In this document: positions 5,079-37,641 of the stretch, piece after piece
Position numbering within the stretch: the stretch's first letter is position 1
Layout: every line of letters starts with the position of its first letter
Assembly (NCBI GenBank): GCA_002686085.1
Contig: NZAC01000064.1
Location: 1-58,042 of the forward strand
Direction of reading: 5' to 3'
Length of the DNA: 58,042 nt
Source: Roseibacillus sp.
Lineage (GTDB): Bacteria > Verrucomicrobiota > Verrucomicrobiia > Verrucomicrobiales > Akkermansiaceae
Made by a program: the position numbers and the translations under genes
Notes under the pieces: model-generated
What the model was told of the DNA's origin: nothing
What the model saw: the letters and a program-made list of their open reading frames with translations, nothing else
The model's database searches: none

Positions 5079-5419
5079 GTTGTTTTCTTGGTTTGAGCTA
5101 AGAGCGAATCGGCTCAGGGTTAGCCTTGGTCGCTAAGGAATGAATTCGAATTGAGGCAATAGATCACCACATCGGGCAAAAAGGCCCCCAAATCAGATTT
5201 GATGTGAGTAATCTGTGGATAAGCTGATATTGGCCAGATCGCTTCCCAAGCTGCCGCCCTTGGTCATCTGGCGGAATGTTCCGTCAAGACCTGCATCGCA
5301 CTCCGGAGGCGGTGTGAATAAGCTTCTCAACTTCCGCTTGATATGGTCGAAAAACACAAAATCTGAGCAATGTTCAAGAAAAAATGAACTGATTCATTAA
5401 AAAATGAACTTATAAAAAA
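5079..5419 (-). promoter_or_regulatory. Leader region of the polysaccharide operon
   Basis: This 341-base stretch without a gene separates the NusG-like gene from the epimerase gene; all are on the minus strand. Its promoter-distal part is AT-rich and carries two copies of TTCA-N8-TGAA (5373-5388 and 5393-5408). Further on, minus-strand positions 5263-5246 form a 5-bp hairpin (CCAAG/CTTGG) whose loop is GGCGGCAG, close to the ops/JUMPstart core used by RfaH. No ORF with a ribosome site was found. Its proposed role is an antitermination or repression zone (inference). Confidence 0.5.
5372..5409. promoter_or_regulatory. Two tandem inverted-repeat operator candidates
   Basis: Site A at 5373-5388 and site B at 5393-5408 both read TTCA, eight A/T-rich bases, TGAA. 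Their centres are 20 bp apart, two helical turns, so two dimers could bind the same DNA face. Site A extends to GTTCA-N8-TGAAC; site B has an A in place of the first G. The same arrangement recurs at 6511-6526 in front of the GbsR-like gene. The likely ligand is that regulator (inference). Confidence 0.6.
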
Positions 5420-5980
5420 TTATGGTCCTGTCTCGTCGGTGCGTAGTGAGCCCTTTCTAGGCAGGAGAAGTGAATAGAGGTCCACATCAACTGGCTGAGC
5501 CTGACCGAGAAACTCGATGAAAATCCGGACCCTCTCTTCCGCCGGCCGGACCTCGAGAACTGTTCCGGTCATTCCCCGCAGGGGGCCGTCGGCCAGCTCC
5601 ACCTGATCACCCGGCTCCGCGATTGGCTGAAGGGTAAGAACTTCTCCCTGATTCTCCTCTCTGGCCAGCTCTGCTCTCAGTTCCTCGATAAAATCCGGGG
5701 CCACCACAGGAACGCTTTCCCCGAAACGAAGAATCCCGCTTACACCAGCTGCGTAGCTGACGGCCCGATGCTTCTCCTCGAGTCTAAAACGAGCAAGGAG
5801 GTAGCCCGGAAACAATGGTTCCATCCACCAGATTTTTCCGCGGCGCGTCACTTTCTTGTAGCGGAGACGAGGACAAACAACCTCCACCCCGCCAATCGCC
5901 CTGAGAGAGGCTGCTGCGATGTGCTCCCGCTTGGGCTGCGCTCGCAAGCAATACCACGCTGCACCCTCAGTCTCTCTCAT
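5420..5980 (-). CDS. NusG paralogue, RfaH/UpxY-like transcription antiterminator
   Basis: A 186-residue specialised NusG protein. Residues about 8-105 are the NGN domain (WYCLRAQPKREHIAA near the start and EPLFPGYLLARF in the middle) and about 120-150 a KOW motif (GDQVELADGPLRGMTGTV). Proteins of this kind bind elongating RNA polymerase and let it pass terminators in long polysaccharide operons. The ATG at 5980 is preferred because it lies 5 bases after the regulator stop with GGGGA as ribosome site. Being the second gene of a polysaccharide operon fits an UpxY/RfaH role; housekeeping NusG would sit with secE and rplK, which are absent here. Confidence 0.88.
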   Translation of the reverse strand: MRETEGAAWYCLRAQPKREHIAAASLRAIGGVEVVCPRLRYKKVTRRGKIWWMEPLFPGYLLARFRLEEKHRAVSYAAGVSGILRFGESVPVVAPDFIEELRAELAREENQGEVLTLQPIAEPGDQVELADGPLRGMTGTVLEVRPAEERVRIFIEFLGQAQPVDVDLYSLLLPRKGSLRTDETGP

Positions 5981-17619: not shown

Positions 17620-19140
17620 TCAGGGGGTAATAACAACCCGGTCTCCTAGCTTTGTGAGATCCCAGAACCGTCCAGCACTTCTGGGGGGTATCCGCAGGCA
17701 CCCATGAGAAGCCGGATGGTCCGGACAGTAGCCCTCGTGAAAACCAATCGCACTGCAATTAAGGCGCTGGAAGAAGGGCATTCTCACTCCCTGATATATA
17801 TTCGACTCATGATCGCGGTGCCTGTCGGTAATCACAAACTCCCCAGGTTCTGTCCGGAACCCCCTCTTTCCAGTTGATACCCTTGTGGTCAGCAGCATCT
17901 GGTCCTCAGTGCCGTAAACCCAGGCCCTCTGCTCAGACAAATCGACCTTGATCCAGCGCTCTTCATGTTCCGGATCTACACCCAGCAGTAGCTGCATCAT
18001 CTTCACGTCCCCACGACGCGCTGCAAATCCGATCGCACAAAAGGATTTACCACTGGTCAGCACCGAACGCCGTGCTCCATGATCTATCAAAAGCTTGGCC
18101 ATTTCGAGATTCCCGCTATCTGCTGCCGCCATCAGAGGCGTCACTCCTGAATCGTATTGCAAGTGACTTTTGAGAAATCCCACTGGTCGCACCCATGCGA
18201 GAAATGCGGGCGTCACCGGACACACAAACGGTTCGTTTACATCGGCTCCTTTCCGGACCAGAGCACGGCAAAGGTCTATGCGATCCATTGCAACCGCAAG
18301 ATGAAGCGGGCCCTGACCCTCCCGCCCCCGGCTTTTCAGTTCCTGATCACTCAAATTGCCTGCCTCCAGAATATCCTCCACCAGACCACACCTTCCTCCG
18401 CGTACCGCCGCTACCAACAGCGCATCCGTAGAATCCTCGTCGGGCTTTACTCCATGCTGGAGAAGAAACCGCAGGAGCTCACGATCTCCCTCCACGGTCG
18501 CATTGTAGAGAGCCGGCCCTGCCACGCCGCCGTACCGTAGAATCACTTCGGCTCGCTCAAGGTCTCTTACCTGTAACAGGGCGCTAATCGCAGGACGGCC
18601 TCCAGGACCCGGCAAGTTCGGATTAGCCCCAGCCTTAAGAAGTATTTCGAGTTCCATCGGAGTCGAATTCAATGCGAGCGCAAGCCCGAGGGAGGTCTCC
18701 CCTCCCGGGCCTCGCTCGCGTGGATCTGCCCCATGGGAAATTAGAATTCTCAGGGCCTCCTGATTGCCACAATGAAGGGCCAGTTGTAGCGGGCTCCATC
18801 CACTCGGATGCCGCAGGTTGCAACTCCCACCCCTGGCCAACAACTGGGAAAGAATATCGGACCCTCCCTGCAGGATTGCACGGTGTATCGCCGACTCCGT
18901 CCATCTACCAAGTATCAGCCCCTGTGCGACCTTCCAATGAGGAGCTGCCATGCGTGATGGAAGTTGCCCATGTGGCACACCGATAACGGGTCGAGGAAAC
19001 ATGAGAGCCTTAAGGCCTCCTCCATCACTCCTCAAAACCTCGCCAAAGGCTGGCATCCCATTCGGGGGAGCCCCAGCCAAGGCACCTGCCATCGCAAGAC
19101 CGAGGGCGCATATCCCTGCAATACCGCGTAACGTTTGCAT
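17620..19140 (-). CDS. Ankyrin-repeat protein fused to an L,D-transpeptidase (YkuD) domain
   Basis: A 506-residue exported protein. The start at 19140 gives a clear signal peptide (MQTLRGIAGICALGLAMAGA). Residues about 85-385 are a series of ankyrin repeats (for example HPSGWSPLQLALHCGN, GPLHLAVAMDRID, GVTPLMAAADSGN). Residues about 400-506 are an L,D-transpeptidase/YkuD domain with SHGCLRI; the catalytic Cys is near 481. Such enzymes cross-link peptidoglycan or attach proteins to it in the periplasm. The ankyrin part probably binds a protein partner. It is convergent with glnB and has no obvious operon partners. Confidence 0.82.
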   Translation of the reverse strand: MQTLRGIAGICALGLAMAGALAGAPPNGMPAFGEVLRSDGGGLKALMFPRPVIGVPHGQLPSRMAAPHWKVAQGLILGRWTESAIHRAILQGGSDILSQLLARGGSCNLRHPSGWSPLQLALHCGNQEALRILISHGADPRERGPGGETSLGLALALNSTPMELEILLKAGANPNLPGPGGRPAISALLQVRDLERAEVILRYGGVAGPALYNATVEGDRELLRFLLQHGVKPDEDSTDALLVAAVRGGRCGLVEDILEAGNLSDQELKSRGREGQGPLHLAVAMDRIDLCRALVRKGADVNEPFVCPVTPAFLAWVRPVGFLKSHLQYDSGVTPLMAAADSGNLEMAKLLIDHGARRSVLTSGKSFCAIGFAARRGDVKMMQLLLGVDPEHEERWIKVDLSEQRAWVYGTEDQMLLTTRVSTGKRGFRTEPGEFVITDRHRDHESNIYQGVRMPFFQRLNCSAIGFHEGYCPDHPASHGCLRIPPRSAGRFWDLTKLGDRVVITP

Positions 19141-19274
19141 CTGATCCTGCAGTTCATCATTGGGCCCCCTGAAATGTCGAGGCCCTTTCACTCCTCTTCA
19201 TCGCCGCACCAATCACGGGTTTCCGCTGATACGCAAATCACAATCTTCGGCCGGAGCCCTTCACGAGCATCCCA

Positions 19275-28623: not shown

Positions 28624-28723
28624 CACACGCCACAGGCGGGAGGGTATCAAAGCAGTAGCCGGCGGGGCAGAATCGCCCCCGAGTATGCAGCGGCCCTGCC
28701 TTCCAAATTTTTCCATCAACCCC

Positions 28724-29983
28724 ATGAAAAGCATCCACCTAATCTTCCCCTCGACTGCAGCCATCGTGCTGGTCGGCATCGCTGCCCTTGCAGATGACTC
28801 CAAGTCAGAGGAATCCCCGGCCGCCAAAGCCCCGGCAAAGTTTACCAACTCTACCCCTACTCCGGCCCAGTGGGACCTTCCTTCGACTCACCGACTCTTC
28901 GTCAGCAAGAAGATTCACGAGCTCGTCACCAAAAAGGGAGGGCCTGGTGAGGCTCCCGAAATGAAGGACTACGAGGAAGTAGCGCCCAGAGCCAATGATG
29001 CGAAATATAAGATGATTGCGCTGAAGGGGGGAGAGTTCGTCATGGGATCTCCAGAAGGCGAACACGAAAATCGCACGGATGACGAGGGCCCTCAGAAGAA
29101 AGTAAAAATCGAGCCGTTCTGGATCGGACAAACTGAAATTCCCTGGGCTCTCTATAAGCCCTTCTACGAAAACGGTATTGCCCGTAACAAGGACGGCAGC
29201 CTGCTTGCGTCCGATAAGGACAAGGAAGTGACCGTCCGCGGAAAACAGCGCAAGAAAGCAGTGAAAGATGCTCTCGCCCGTGGTGATAGCAGTAACATCG
29301 TAGACGTGGTCTCACAGCCAACGCCCCAATACCACGACATGTTCGGGAGCGGAGAGCACGCCTCCGAATTGAACTATCCTGCCATGTGCACCACCCACCA
29401 CGCTGCCTCCAAGTTCTGCCAGTGGCTTAGCGCCCAGACTGGGCACTTTTACAGACTGCCCACCGAGGCCGAATGGGAATATGCGTGCCGTGCGGGAACT
29501 ACCACCGCCTTTCACTTCGGGGACGACATCGCCAAGCTAGACGACTACGCGTGGCACGGCGATAATTCCGAATTTACCTATTATCCCGTCGGCACCAAAA
29601 AGCCGAATCCGTGGGGGCTTCATGACATGCACGGCAATGTCGGCGAGTGGGTCCTTGATGGATTCAGCGAAGGATATCGTGACACCATCAAGGATGGAGC
29701 CGTCAATCCCTGGAATATTTCCCTTACTCGTTATCCTCGGATCGTAAAAGGGGGCTCATGGGACCAGAACCCTGATGAATGCCGAAGTGCAGCCCGGGCG
29801 CAATCCGTGAAGGACTGGAAAGATACTGACCCGCAAGTACCAAAAAGTATCTGGTATCACACGGACGGTCAGTTCATCGGCTTCCGCATCGTACGGCCCC
29901 TGAAAACTCCGACCGCCGAAGAGATGCACGTTTACTGGAACACCGACTGGTGGGAACCCACCAGAAATGCCGAGGACCTTTAG
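28724..29983 (+). CDS. Formylglycine-enzyme-fold (SUMF1-like) secreted protein, probably not a true FGE
   Basis: A 419-residue exported protein. The ATG at 28724 is chosen because it gives a signal peptide (MKSIHLIFPSTAAIVLVG). Residues about 90-400 are the FGE-sulfatase fold: GGEFVMGS, then RLPTEAEWEYACRAGT, NPWGLHDMHGNVGEWV, IVKGGSWDQNPDECRSAAR and GFR. The pair of Cys that does catalysis in real formylglycine-generating enzymes (in the stretch right after GGS) is not present, so it most likely has another role, as many members of this superfamily do. A terminator follows at 30016-30050. Confidence 0.85.
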   Translation: MKSIHLIFPSTAAIVLVGIAALADDSKSEESPAAKAPAKFTNSTPTPAQWDLPSTHRLFVSKKIHELVTKKGGPGEAPEMKDYEEVAPRANDAKYKMIALKGGEFVMGSPEGEHENRTDDEGPQKKVKIEPFWIGQTEIPWALYKPFYENGIARNKDGSLLASDKDKEVTVRGKQRKKAVKDALARGDSSNIVDVVSQPTPQYHDMFGSGEHASELNYPAMCTTHHAASKFCQWLSAQTGHFYRLPTEAEWEYACRAGTTTAFHFGDDIAKLDDYAWHGDNSEFTYYPVGTKKPNPWGLHDMHGNVGEWVLDGFSEGYRDTIKDGAVNPWNISLTRYPRIVKGGSWDQNPDECRSAARAQSVKDWKDTDPQVPKSIWYHTDGQFIGFRIVRPLKTPTAEEMHVYWNTDWWEPTRNAEDL

Positions 29984-30060: not shown

Positions 30061-30579
30061 CTATTCGAAAGCCTCCAGGGCCTGAAGCAAATCCTCCCCT
30101 TGGCTACCCGCAGACACCTTCTCTTGCTTCCAGACCAGCTTCCCATCCTTGAATAAGTAAGCCTGCCGAGAGGCAAATTTCCCCAGATGTGGAACGCCAA
30201 AGGCCTTGATAATCCTTCCTTTCACGTCTGCCAGAAGTTCAAAGGGGAGCATTTGCTTTTCCACGAAGGCTTTCTGAGCGGATACCGTGTCGAAAGACAC
30301 TCCGTAAATTCTGAGACCTTTCTTCAGTAACTTTTCGTTTACGTCCCGTAAACTACACACCTGCTTTGTTCATCCCCCGGTCAGGGCCTTGGGATAGAAA
30401 AAGAAAAACGCCAATCCCTCTGCTGCCACTTCGTGAACTCGGACGAGCTCTCCCTTATGGTTCTTCGCCTCAGCCCTGGGAAGGGCTTTGCCAAGGTCCA
30501 AGCTTTCCGCCATCGTTGGCTGAGCGAAGGCAAACAGCGACCCAAGCCCCGTTAGCCATCTCGAAAGTTTTTTCTTCAT
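30061..30579 (-). CDS. Peroxiredoxin, BCP type, with in-frame UGA at the peroxidatic residue (probable selenoprotein)
   Basis: Read through the UGA at 30372-30370, the frame gives a 172-residue exported thiol peroxidase (signal peptide MKKKLSRWLTGLGSLFAFAQ) that would reduce peroxides. It continues without shift: YPKALTGG-UGA-TKQVCSLRD. In E. coli BCP the same place reads PGC-TVQAC-GLRD, so UGA is exactly the peroxidatic Cys codon (position 70), and the resolving Cys five residues later is kept (Cys75). After the UGA comes a perfect 7-bp hairpin with a GGA loop at 30353-30337, at the distance expected for a bacterial SECIS. Automatic annotation would call this two genes or a pseudogene. A single nonsense mutation is the main alternative. 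The start codon overlaps the divergent apbE start. Confidence 0.8.
30337..30353 (-). promoter_or_regulatory. SECIS-like hairpin downstream of the UGA
   Basis: On the minus strand GTTTACG, GGA loop, CGTAAAC form a 7-bp perfect stem. The loop begins 23 bases after the UGA and opens with G residues, both as described for bacterial SECIS elements (apical loop 16-37 bases away with an early G). It lies within coding sequence of a peroxiredoxin. Confidence 0.65.
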
Positions 30580-31657
30580 GACTCGACCCATATCCCGCCC
30601 GAGCAGGAATGCCAGAAGGATTTTCGTGGCCCTCATCATCATCGTGGCCGGTGCCTGCTCCCTCCTGGTCGGTCCCAGAATTTGGGAAAGGCTCCAAACT
30701 CCCCGGCATGGGCAAGAACAAGCCTTAGAGACAGTTCCTGTCTACTCCAGCGACCATCCCATGATGGGCACCACAGCACGGATTGTGGTCTATGCGACAG
30801 ATCTGAAGAAAGGAGAGGTCGCCATCAAGGCCGCATTCGATCGCGCTGATGAGATCGGTTTTATCTGCAGCGACTACAATCCGGAGAGCGAACTTATGCG
30901 TCTGTGCCGGGGGCCGGTTAATGAACCAATTCCAGTCTCCCGTACGCTGGCGACAGTTCTGACCCATGCACACAGTATCGCAGAAACCACCGAAGGAGCC
31001 TTCGATCCCACTCTTGGGGGATTTACCAAGCTCTGGCGAAGGTCGAAGCGAAAAAATGCGCTGCCTGATCCCTCTCTACTCGAGAGAGCTCGCAATGCGG
31101 CAGGCTGGACAAAATTCGACGTCTTTCTGGAACAGCAGACCGTAATTATAAAAGACGAAAACCTGCTCTTCGACCTTGGGGGCATCGCCAAGGGCTATGC
31201 TGCGGATGAAATGCTGCGCGTCATCAAGTCCCACGGGATTTCCTCCGCGATGGTAGCTGTCGCAGGAGACGTCAGACTGGGCTCTCCTCCCCCGGGCCGA
31301 TCCGGGTGGGCCGTTGGCATCAGGACCCTGGGCGCCGACGTTGAGCAAATCATGCACGTAGCCAACTGTGCTGTCTCCACCTCGGGGGATATTGAACGCT
31401 TTGTGGATATCGAGGGAACCCGCTACTCGCATATCATTGACCCCGAGACGGGCGTTGGGCTCACCCGGCGAATCGCCGCCACGGTAGTCGCACCCACCGC
31501 GGTCCAAAGCGACCCTCTGGCCACCTTCTGCTGCATCAAGCCACAATTCGCCTCCAAGATCTTTGCAGCCGGAGAGATTTCCTGCCGAATTGTGACTCTT
31601 GGGGAGGGCCCCTTTGACCAGAGAACCCGGCAATTCCCAACCTTAACCCGCCCTTAG
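30578..31657 (+). CDS. apbE: FAD:protein FMN transferase (ApbE)
   Basis: Transfers FMN from FAD to Thr residues of target flavoproteins outside the cytoplasm. The 359-residue protein has an N-terminal membrane/signal segment (about 14-34) and ApbE motifs: HPMMGTTARIVVY, DPTLGGFTKLWR, FDLGGIAKGYAAD, AGDVRLGS and SHIIDPETG with the family's metal-binding Asp. The ATG at 30578 shares bases with the minus-strand ATG of the peroxiredoxin (CATG), so no promoter can lie between the genes. No clear target flavoprotein is visible in the window. Confidence 0.9.
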   Translation: MTRPISRPSRNARRIFVALIIIVAGACSLLVGPRIWERLQTPRHGQEQALETVPVYSSDHPMMGTTARIVVYATDLKKGEVAIKAAFDRADEIGFICSDYNPESELMRLCRGPVNEPIPVSRTLATVLTHAHSIAETTEGAFDPTLGGFTKLWRRSKRKNALPDPSLLERARNAAGWTKFDVFLEQQTVIIKDENLLFDLGGIAKGYAADEMLRVIKSHGISSAMVAVAGDVRLGSPPPGRSGWAVGIRTLGADVEQIMHVANCAVSTSGDIERFVDIEGTRYSHIIDPETGVGLTRRIAATVVAPTAVQSDPLATFCCIKPQFASKIFAAGEISCRIVTLGEGPFDQRTRQFPTLTRP

Positions 31658-36771: not shown

Positions 36772-37641
36772 ATGTCTATTACCGCCTCTCAAGTTAAGGA
36801 ACTCCGCGACCGCACCAATGCAGGCATGATGGAGTGCAAAAAAGCACTACAGGAAACTGATGGAGATATCGAGGCTGCCATCAAAAAGCTGCGGGAAGCC
36901 GGGGCTATCAAGGCCGCCAAGAAGGCGGATCGCTCCGCGAAGGAAGGCATCGTTGCCGCACAAATTGACCCGGACGCCAAGCATGGCATCCTTGCAGAGA
37001 TCAACTGCGAGACCGACTTCGTAGCCAAGAACGACAACTTTCAGGCATTTGTAGCGGAGCTGGTCAGGGCCGTCGCAGAGTCGGGAGCTACCGATGTGGA
37101 GGCCGCGCACGCACTTCCGCATGCCGACGGCAGTATCGAGGACTTCGTAAAGTCCAAGGTGATTGAACTTGGAGAGAACCTGCAGTTCCGCCGGATGACA
37201 CGCTACGATATGGAGGGATCAGGATTGGTCGGTTCCTATATCCACCTCGGAGGCAAGGTCGGGGTCATGCTGGAAGTCGGGTGCGAAAGCGACAATACCG
37301 CGTCAAACGATGACTTCCGGGCCCTCGTCAAGGACCTGACCCTCCACATTGCCGCACTTTCTCCTGCAGGGATCAACCGCGACGATATTCCCGCCGAACT
37401 CGTTGAGTCGGAGAAGGCAATCGCCCGGAAGGAGCTGGAAGCCCGCGGAGTCCCCGCAGAACGTATCGACGGAGCCGCCCAGGGAAAACTTGGCAAATTC
37501 TACGCCGAGCGGTGCCTGCTGGAGCAAGCTTTCGTTAAGGACCCAGACGTTTCTGTGGGAGCACTCCTTGAGACGACGGGAAAGTCACTTGGTGATACCC
37601 TGTCAATTCGTCGGTTTGTGCGCTACGCTCTAGGAGAGTAA
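36772..37641 (+). CDS. tsf: Elongation factor Ts
   Basis: The GDP exchange factor for EF-Tu, 289 residues. The N-terminal UBA-like region reads SQVKELRDRTNAGMMECKKAL, and INCETDFVAKND is the family signature near 81-92. The C-terminal part repeats the core fold. The terminator at 37671-37700 ends the rpsB-tsf transcript. Confidence 0.97.
   Translation: MSITASQVKELRDRTNAGMMECKKALQETDGDIEAAIKKLREAGAIKAAKKADRSAKEGIVAAQIDPDAKHGILAEINCETDFVAKNDNFQAFVAELVRAVAESGATDVEAAHALPHADGSIEDFVKSKVIELGENLQFRRMTRYDMEGSGLVGSYIHLGGKVGVMLEVGCESDNTASNDDFRALVKDLTLHIAALSPAGINRDDIPAELVESEKAIARKELEARGVPAERIDGAAQGKLGKFYAERCLLEQAFVKDPDVSVGALLETTGKSLGDTLSIRRFVRYALGE

Follow-up and report, generated by a model that had tools for sequence, protein, structure and literature searches.

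Introduction

Selenocysteine-containing peroxiredoxins of the COG1225/Bcp type, recognised by a TxxU motif, have long been known and are among the commonest marine selenoproteins (PMC1088965, PMC2398784). The family was recorded with 43 sequences in the Sargasso Sea and 253 in the GOS data (PMC1088965, PMC2398784, PMC9312934; the 253 GOS members in PMC2398784). Verrucomicrobia are not mentioned for this family in these three papers, and the unassigned marine reads may include them; in the open-access literature we found nothing relevant on selenocysteine in Verrucomicrobiota or Roseibacillus. In a 2006 survey of peroxiredoxins, five conversions from Cys to Sec were counted and none from Sec to Cys (PMC1794560). 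For the bacterial SECIS element, the published limits are a loop of 3-9 nt, a stem of 4-16 bp, a spacing of 16-37 nt, a G within the first two positions of the loop and an MFE of at most -7.5 (PMC13188914).

Here we compare with these systems a gene of Roseibacillus sp., located in a stretch of 58,042 nucleotides (contig NZAC01000064.1; the whole stretch is called the window below). The product of this gene is almost certainly a selenocysteine peroxiredoxin of the BCP/PrxQ class that is exported from the cytoplasm, with SelB, a tRNA-Sec(UCA) and a hairpin serving to decode the UGA at codon 70 as Sec. The reading frame, conservation of the UGA, covariation of the SECIS element, Sec machinery, Sec/Cys exchange, and the sequence and predicted fold of the peroxiredoxin were computed, and the actual insertion of Sec, the export, the catalytic cycle and the reductant are proposed on this basis.

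Results

Between 30579 and 30061, the minus strand holds a single frame of 172 codons, running from the ATG at 30579 to the TAG at 30063-30061, and its start and stop are kept in 12 homologues, indicating a complete coding sequence. The only internal stop is the TGA at 30372-30370 (codon 70), in the context YPKALTGG-U-TKQVC. Our re-reading of the strand thus agrees with the initial annotation, which had described an unbroken frame save for this UGA and no frameshift. It had also placed the UGA at the position of the peroxidatic Cys of BCP proteins, with the resolving Cys kept five residues on; the same column is Cys in the Cys orthologues, and Cys75 (30355-30357, minus strand) is present as the putative resolving cysteine at Sec +5 in the alignment. 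Five residues past the peroxidatic residue is also where PrxQ proteins have their resolving Cys. On inspection, residues 1-24 resemble a signal peptide (30508-30579, minus strand; cleavage placed by eye between MKKKLSRWLTGLGSLFAFAQPTMA and ES), and from this we infer export.

The read-through product is an AhpC/TSA protein (PF00578, 2.1e-25, 89.5 bits), and its nearest solved structures are those of yeast Dot5 and bacterial BCP/PrxQ. The AF2 model has a mean pLDDT of 89.9, with low confidence for residues 1-20, and finds its best PDB matches in Dot5, BCP and PrxQ. P63, T67, U70 and R138, that is the PxxxTxxC(U) motif and the conserved Arg, are invariant in 48 sequences, position 70 being either Sec or Cys. 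By sequence and predicted fold, the protein is a peroxiredoxin of the BCP/PrxQ class. The top-scoring NCBIfam model, NF006960 (thioredoxin-dependent thiol peroxidase Bcp), gave 82.6 bits, under its equivalog cut-off of 140, as in a divergent subfamily, and the protein is therefore filed in the broad BCP/PrxQ class. The comparison with PrxU in the initial annotation pointed to the wrong subfamily: membership is rejected by the score against NF040737 (23.2 bits with a cut-off of 270), and the right match is the BCP/COG1225 selenocysteine peroxiredoxin with the TxxU motif.

Downstream of the UGA, a hairpin with a 7-bp stem (GTTTACG-GGA-CGTAAAC) is found at 30337-30353 on the minus strand, where 30353-30347 pairs with 30343-30337 around a GGA loop at 30346-30344. 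There are 16 nt from the UGA to the start of the stem and 23 nt to the loop; stem, loop and both distances are in the sequence as originally described. The hairpin lies within all the published bacterial SECIS limits, its MFE of -7.8 being just inside. For the window sequence alone, a hairpin this good has P = 0.021 under synonymous codon shuffling; in one sequence it is only moderately unlikely and alone it would not convince. Judged on the aligned homologues, the comparative evidence lifts the predicted element far above chance. Among 29 distinct sequences of Sec forms, two-sided changes occur in four of the seven pairs and 91.6% of the cells are paired, the latter figure carrying some bias as the stem was defined on the window's own sequence. 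Shifted registers pair much worse, and the annotated register is the best of all slides. In the Cys orthologues (n = 25), in contrast, 39% of the cells pair, with no covariation exceeding that of shuffles; this control and the two-sided changes are independent of the bias in stem definition. Pairs were counted on a fixed structure because folds of 48 nt gave competing structures in several of the 13 genus sequences. A search of the whole window with Rfam at gathering level gave no match, which is not diagnostic for the hairpin, and it was judged by covariation instead.

The sel genes that the initial annotation had suggested searching for were all found in the same genome: selA (503 bits), selB (281 bits) and selD (369 bits), each above its cut-off, and a tRNA-Sec (67 bits) with the anticodon UCA. 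The selD bears its own in-frame TGA in the region of the SelD active site. At least 46 of 260 family genomes carry the UGA-containing peroxiredoxin, and among the matches listed, selA was present in 43 of these 46 genomes versus 26 of the 214 others (Fisher p = 2.5e-27 by genome, a value that overstates independence, as shared ancestry of the genomes inflates the test). The carriers in which selA was not detected (G200, G240 and G243) are 70%, 86% and 72% complete, respectively. Selenium formate dehydrogenase, sought via its molybdopterin domain, gave three matches, none of which had an internal TGA. A GTPase encoded at 147-1415 on the minus strand of the window matches the SelB model weakly; it is a member of the EF-Tu family whose C-terminal domain is of the eEF1A type, and was rejected as SelB.

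Among 48 aligned family members, every residue in the UGA column that is not Sec is Cys, the peroxidatic residue (PKADTPG-C-TKQACSLRD in the Cys form versus PKALTGG-U-TKQVCSLRD in the Sec form), so that the anticipated exchange of Cys and UGA between homologues is seen at the predicted column. Most genomes with Cys orthologues were without selA. On a tree built with the UGA column masked, at least four changes between the Sec and Cys states are needed. One Cys member (L083, G226:C174) is nested in a supported Sec clade and has kept TGG, the motif seen in the Sec forms, and it therefore looks like a Sec-to-Cys reversion; as the root of the tree is uncertain, the direction of this apparent change is provisional. 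Its hairpin is disrupted, and the genome (G226) still carries selA and a Sec paralogue. In relatives from several genera, there is a second selenocysteine peroxiredoxin paralogue (L087-L097), about 35% identical and with a lipobox-like N-terminus, in which the Cys at Sec +5 is mostly absent; these proteins are possible lipoprotein 1-Sec peroxiredoxins.

A standard gene caller stops the ORF at the UGA and gives two short ORFs (30370-30642 and 30061-30360 in the automatic ORF list), as would be expected if a peroxiredoxin gene had been newly inactivated by a nonsense mutation. We consider this very improbable, and the reading is refuted by conservation and by selection downstream of the UGA. In all 12 separately deposited records (labelled Roseibacillus, Akkermansiaceae or Verrucomicrobiales; 70-97% identity) and in each of the 14 genomes of the genus for which a match was listed, this codon is TGA and the frame has no further stop or frameshift; the two sets overlap, as some of the assemblies are identical. 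Within the genus, the UGA is unchanged even in homologues that are only about 56% identical. In 13 sequences, mean pN/pS was 0.20 for codons 25-69 versus 0.16 for codons 71-172, with the minimum (0.07) in the stretch bearing the hairpin; the low values on both sides of the UGA indicate that translation runs on past it. Instead of the scattered decay in close relatives that the initial annotation had considered, purifying selection thus extends through the UGA, and its preference for a selenoprotein over a pseudogene is supported by the conserved UGA, this selection, the sel genes and the covarying hairpin. The possibility that an assembly or sequencing error turned TGC or TGT into TGA, also considered there, has a practically negligible probability, had nothing in its favour and is ruled out, as the identical TGA recurs in many assemblies from separate projects. 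Decoding of the UGA as some other amino acid, or by general readthrough, is equally as improbable as the inactivated gene: although the residue inserted is not visible in a genome sequence, the Sec machinery is complete and includes a tRNA-Sec with the UCA anticodon, the UGA stands in place of the catalytic Cys, the hairpin is found only where the UGA is present, and the genes adjoining the peroxiredoxin in the window read normally with table 11. Taken from the genomic evidence, insertion of Sec at codon 70 is strongly supported.

It is also conceivable that Sec is inserted and the protein functions as a thiol-disulfide oxidoreductase or a sensor, since the Pfam AhpC-TSA family takes in non-peroxidase members as well and activity cannot be revealed by sequence. 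However, the BCP/PrxQ layout (PxxxT..U, Cys at +5 and invariant Arg138) and the nearest structures, which are peroxidases, make such a function unlikely, and a selenocysteine-dependent peroxidase is the preferred reading.

The gene is divergent from an ApbE-type FAD:protein transferase (30578-31657, plus strand; PF02424, 213.8 bits), and the two start codons overlap (CATG, 30577-30580), so that the upstream signals of each would fall within the other gene. This linkage is found across the genus and also in genomes with the Cys form from two further genera (L053, L102), and it is therefore not tied to the use of Sec; it is a matter of context and not needed for recoding. On the other side lies a convergent gene for a formylglycine-generating-enzyme-like (SUMF1) protein (28685-29983, plus strand; PF03781, 137 bits), a conserved neighbour. 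Elsewhere in the window, a gene at 17620-19191 (minus strand) joins ankyrin repeats to a YkuD (L,D-transpeptidase) domain. A tRNA-Val called by ARAGORN at 37288-37355 (minus strand), inside the ORF 36772-37641, is probably false because Rfam has no tRNA there at gathering level.

Discussion

The catalytic cycle of the enzyme can be drawn by analogy with PrxQ. The hairpin 16 nt downstream would direct SelB and tRNA-Sec(UCA) to read the UGA at codon 70 as Sec, and the mature protein would have its place of action in the periplasm. There, the selenolate of Sec70 would attack H2O2 or an organic hydroperoxide, the selenenic acid so formed would condense with Cys75, giving a selenenylsulfide, and the enzyme would be regenerated by a thioredoxin-like reductant outside the cytoplasm. 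The same genome has two tandem thioredoxin-like genes on the minus strand (L117; UPPC, G000:C20:4430-5149, and UGPC, 5211-5747), both with an in-frame UGA in the motif and with what look like export signals. Each of the 15 genomes of the genus has homologues with a UGA, usually two that adjoin; in a quick fold, a clear SECIS was not seen for the first of the genes. These proteins are perhaps candidate reductants of the peroxiredoxin. An extracytoplasmic selenium relay, in which the exported Sec-PrxQ is re-reduced by the tandem exported selenocysteine thioredoxin-like proteins (UGPC, UPPC), is a speculative extension that we think has a small chance of being correct; if true, Sec would be used by the enzyme and by its reductants alike.

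With these results, a selenoprotein class that is common in marine metagenomes is assigned to a named genus of Verrucomicrobiota; standard annotation breaks the gene into two short ORFs. New are the host in Verrucomicrobiota, the predicted export, the apparent Sec-to-Cys reversion, the lipobox-bearing selenocysteine paralogue and the two tandem selenocysteine thioredoxin-like genes. The Sec forms, the Cys forms and the apparent reversion in G226, which is without the hairpin, also offer a natural series for studying what Sec buys an exported peroxidase.

Compared with the described systems, PrxU (NF040737; the selenocysteine peroxiredoxin of Eubacterium acidaminophilum) is likewise a Sec-containing peroxiredoxin with a thioredoxin fold, in a different subfamily. 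The Cys forms of BCP, PrxQ and yeast Dot5 (PDB 2a4v, 3gkm, 5iiz, 5epf) have the fold, the active-site motif and the second Cys at +5 in common with the Roseibacillus protein, which differs in having Sec for Cys and a predicted export, with about 24-31% identity in the structural matches. The Cys PrxQ orthologues from other genera of the family are closer (about 50% identity) and share the signal peptide/N-terminal region and the active site, but those of the sister genera have TPGC where Roseibacillus has TGGU, and no SECIS-like hairpin. Closest is the COG1225 TxxU family, which is likewise of the BCP type and marine, with Sec for the peroxidatic Cys (here TGGU) and a downstream bacterial SECIS. 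As that family is already abundant in marine metagenomes, the Roseibacillus gene adds a member to a known class, and it differs from the earlier reports in its assignment to Roseibacillus (Verrucomicrobiota) and in its predicted signal peptide.
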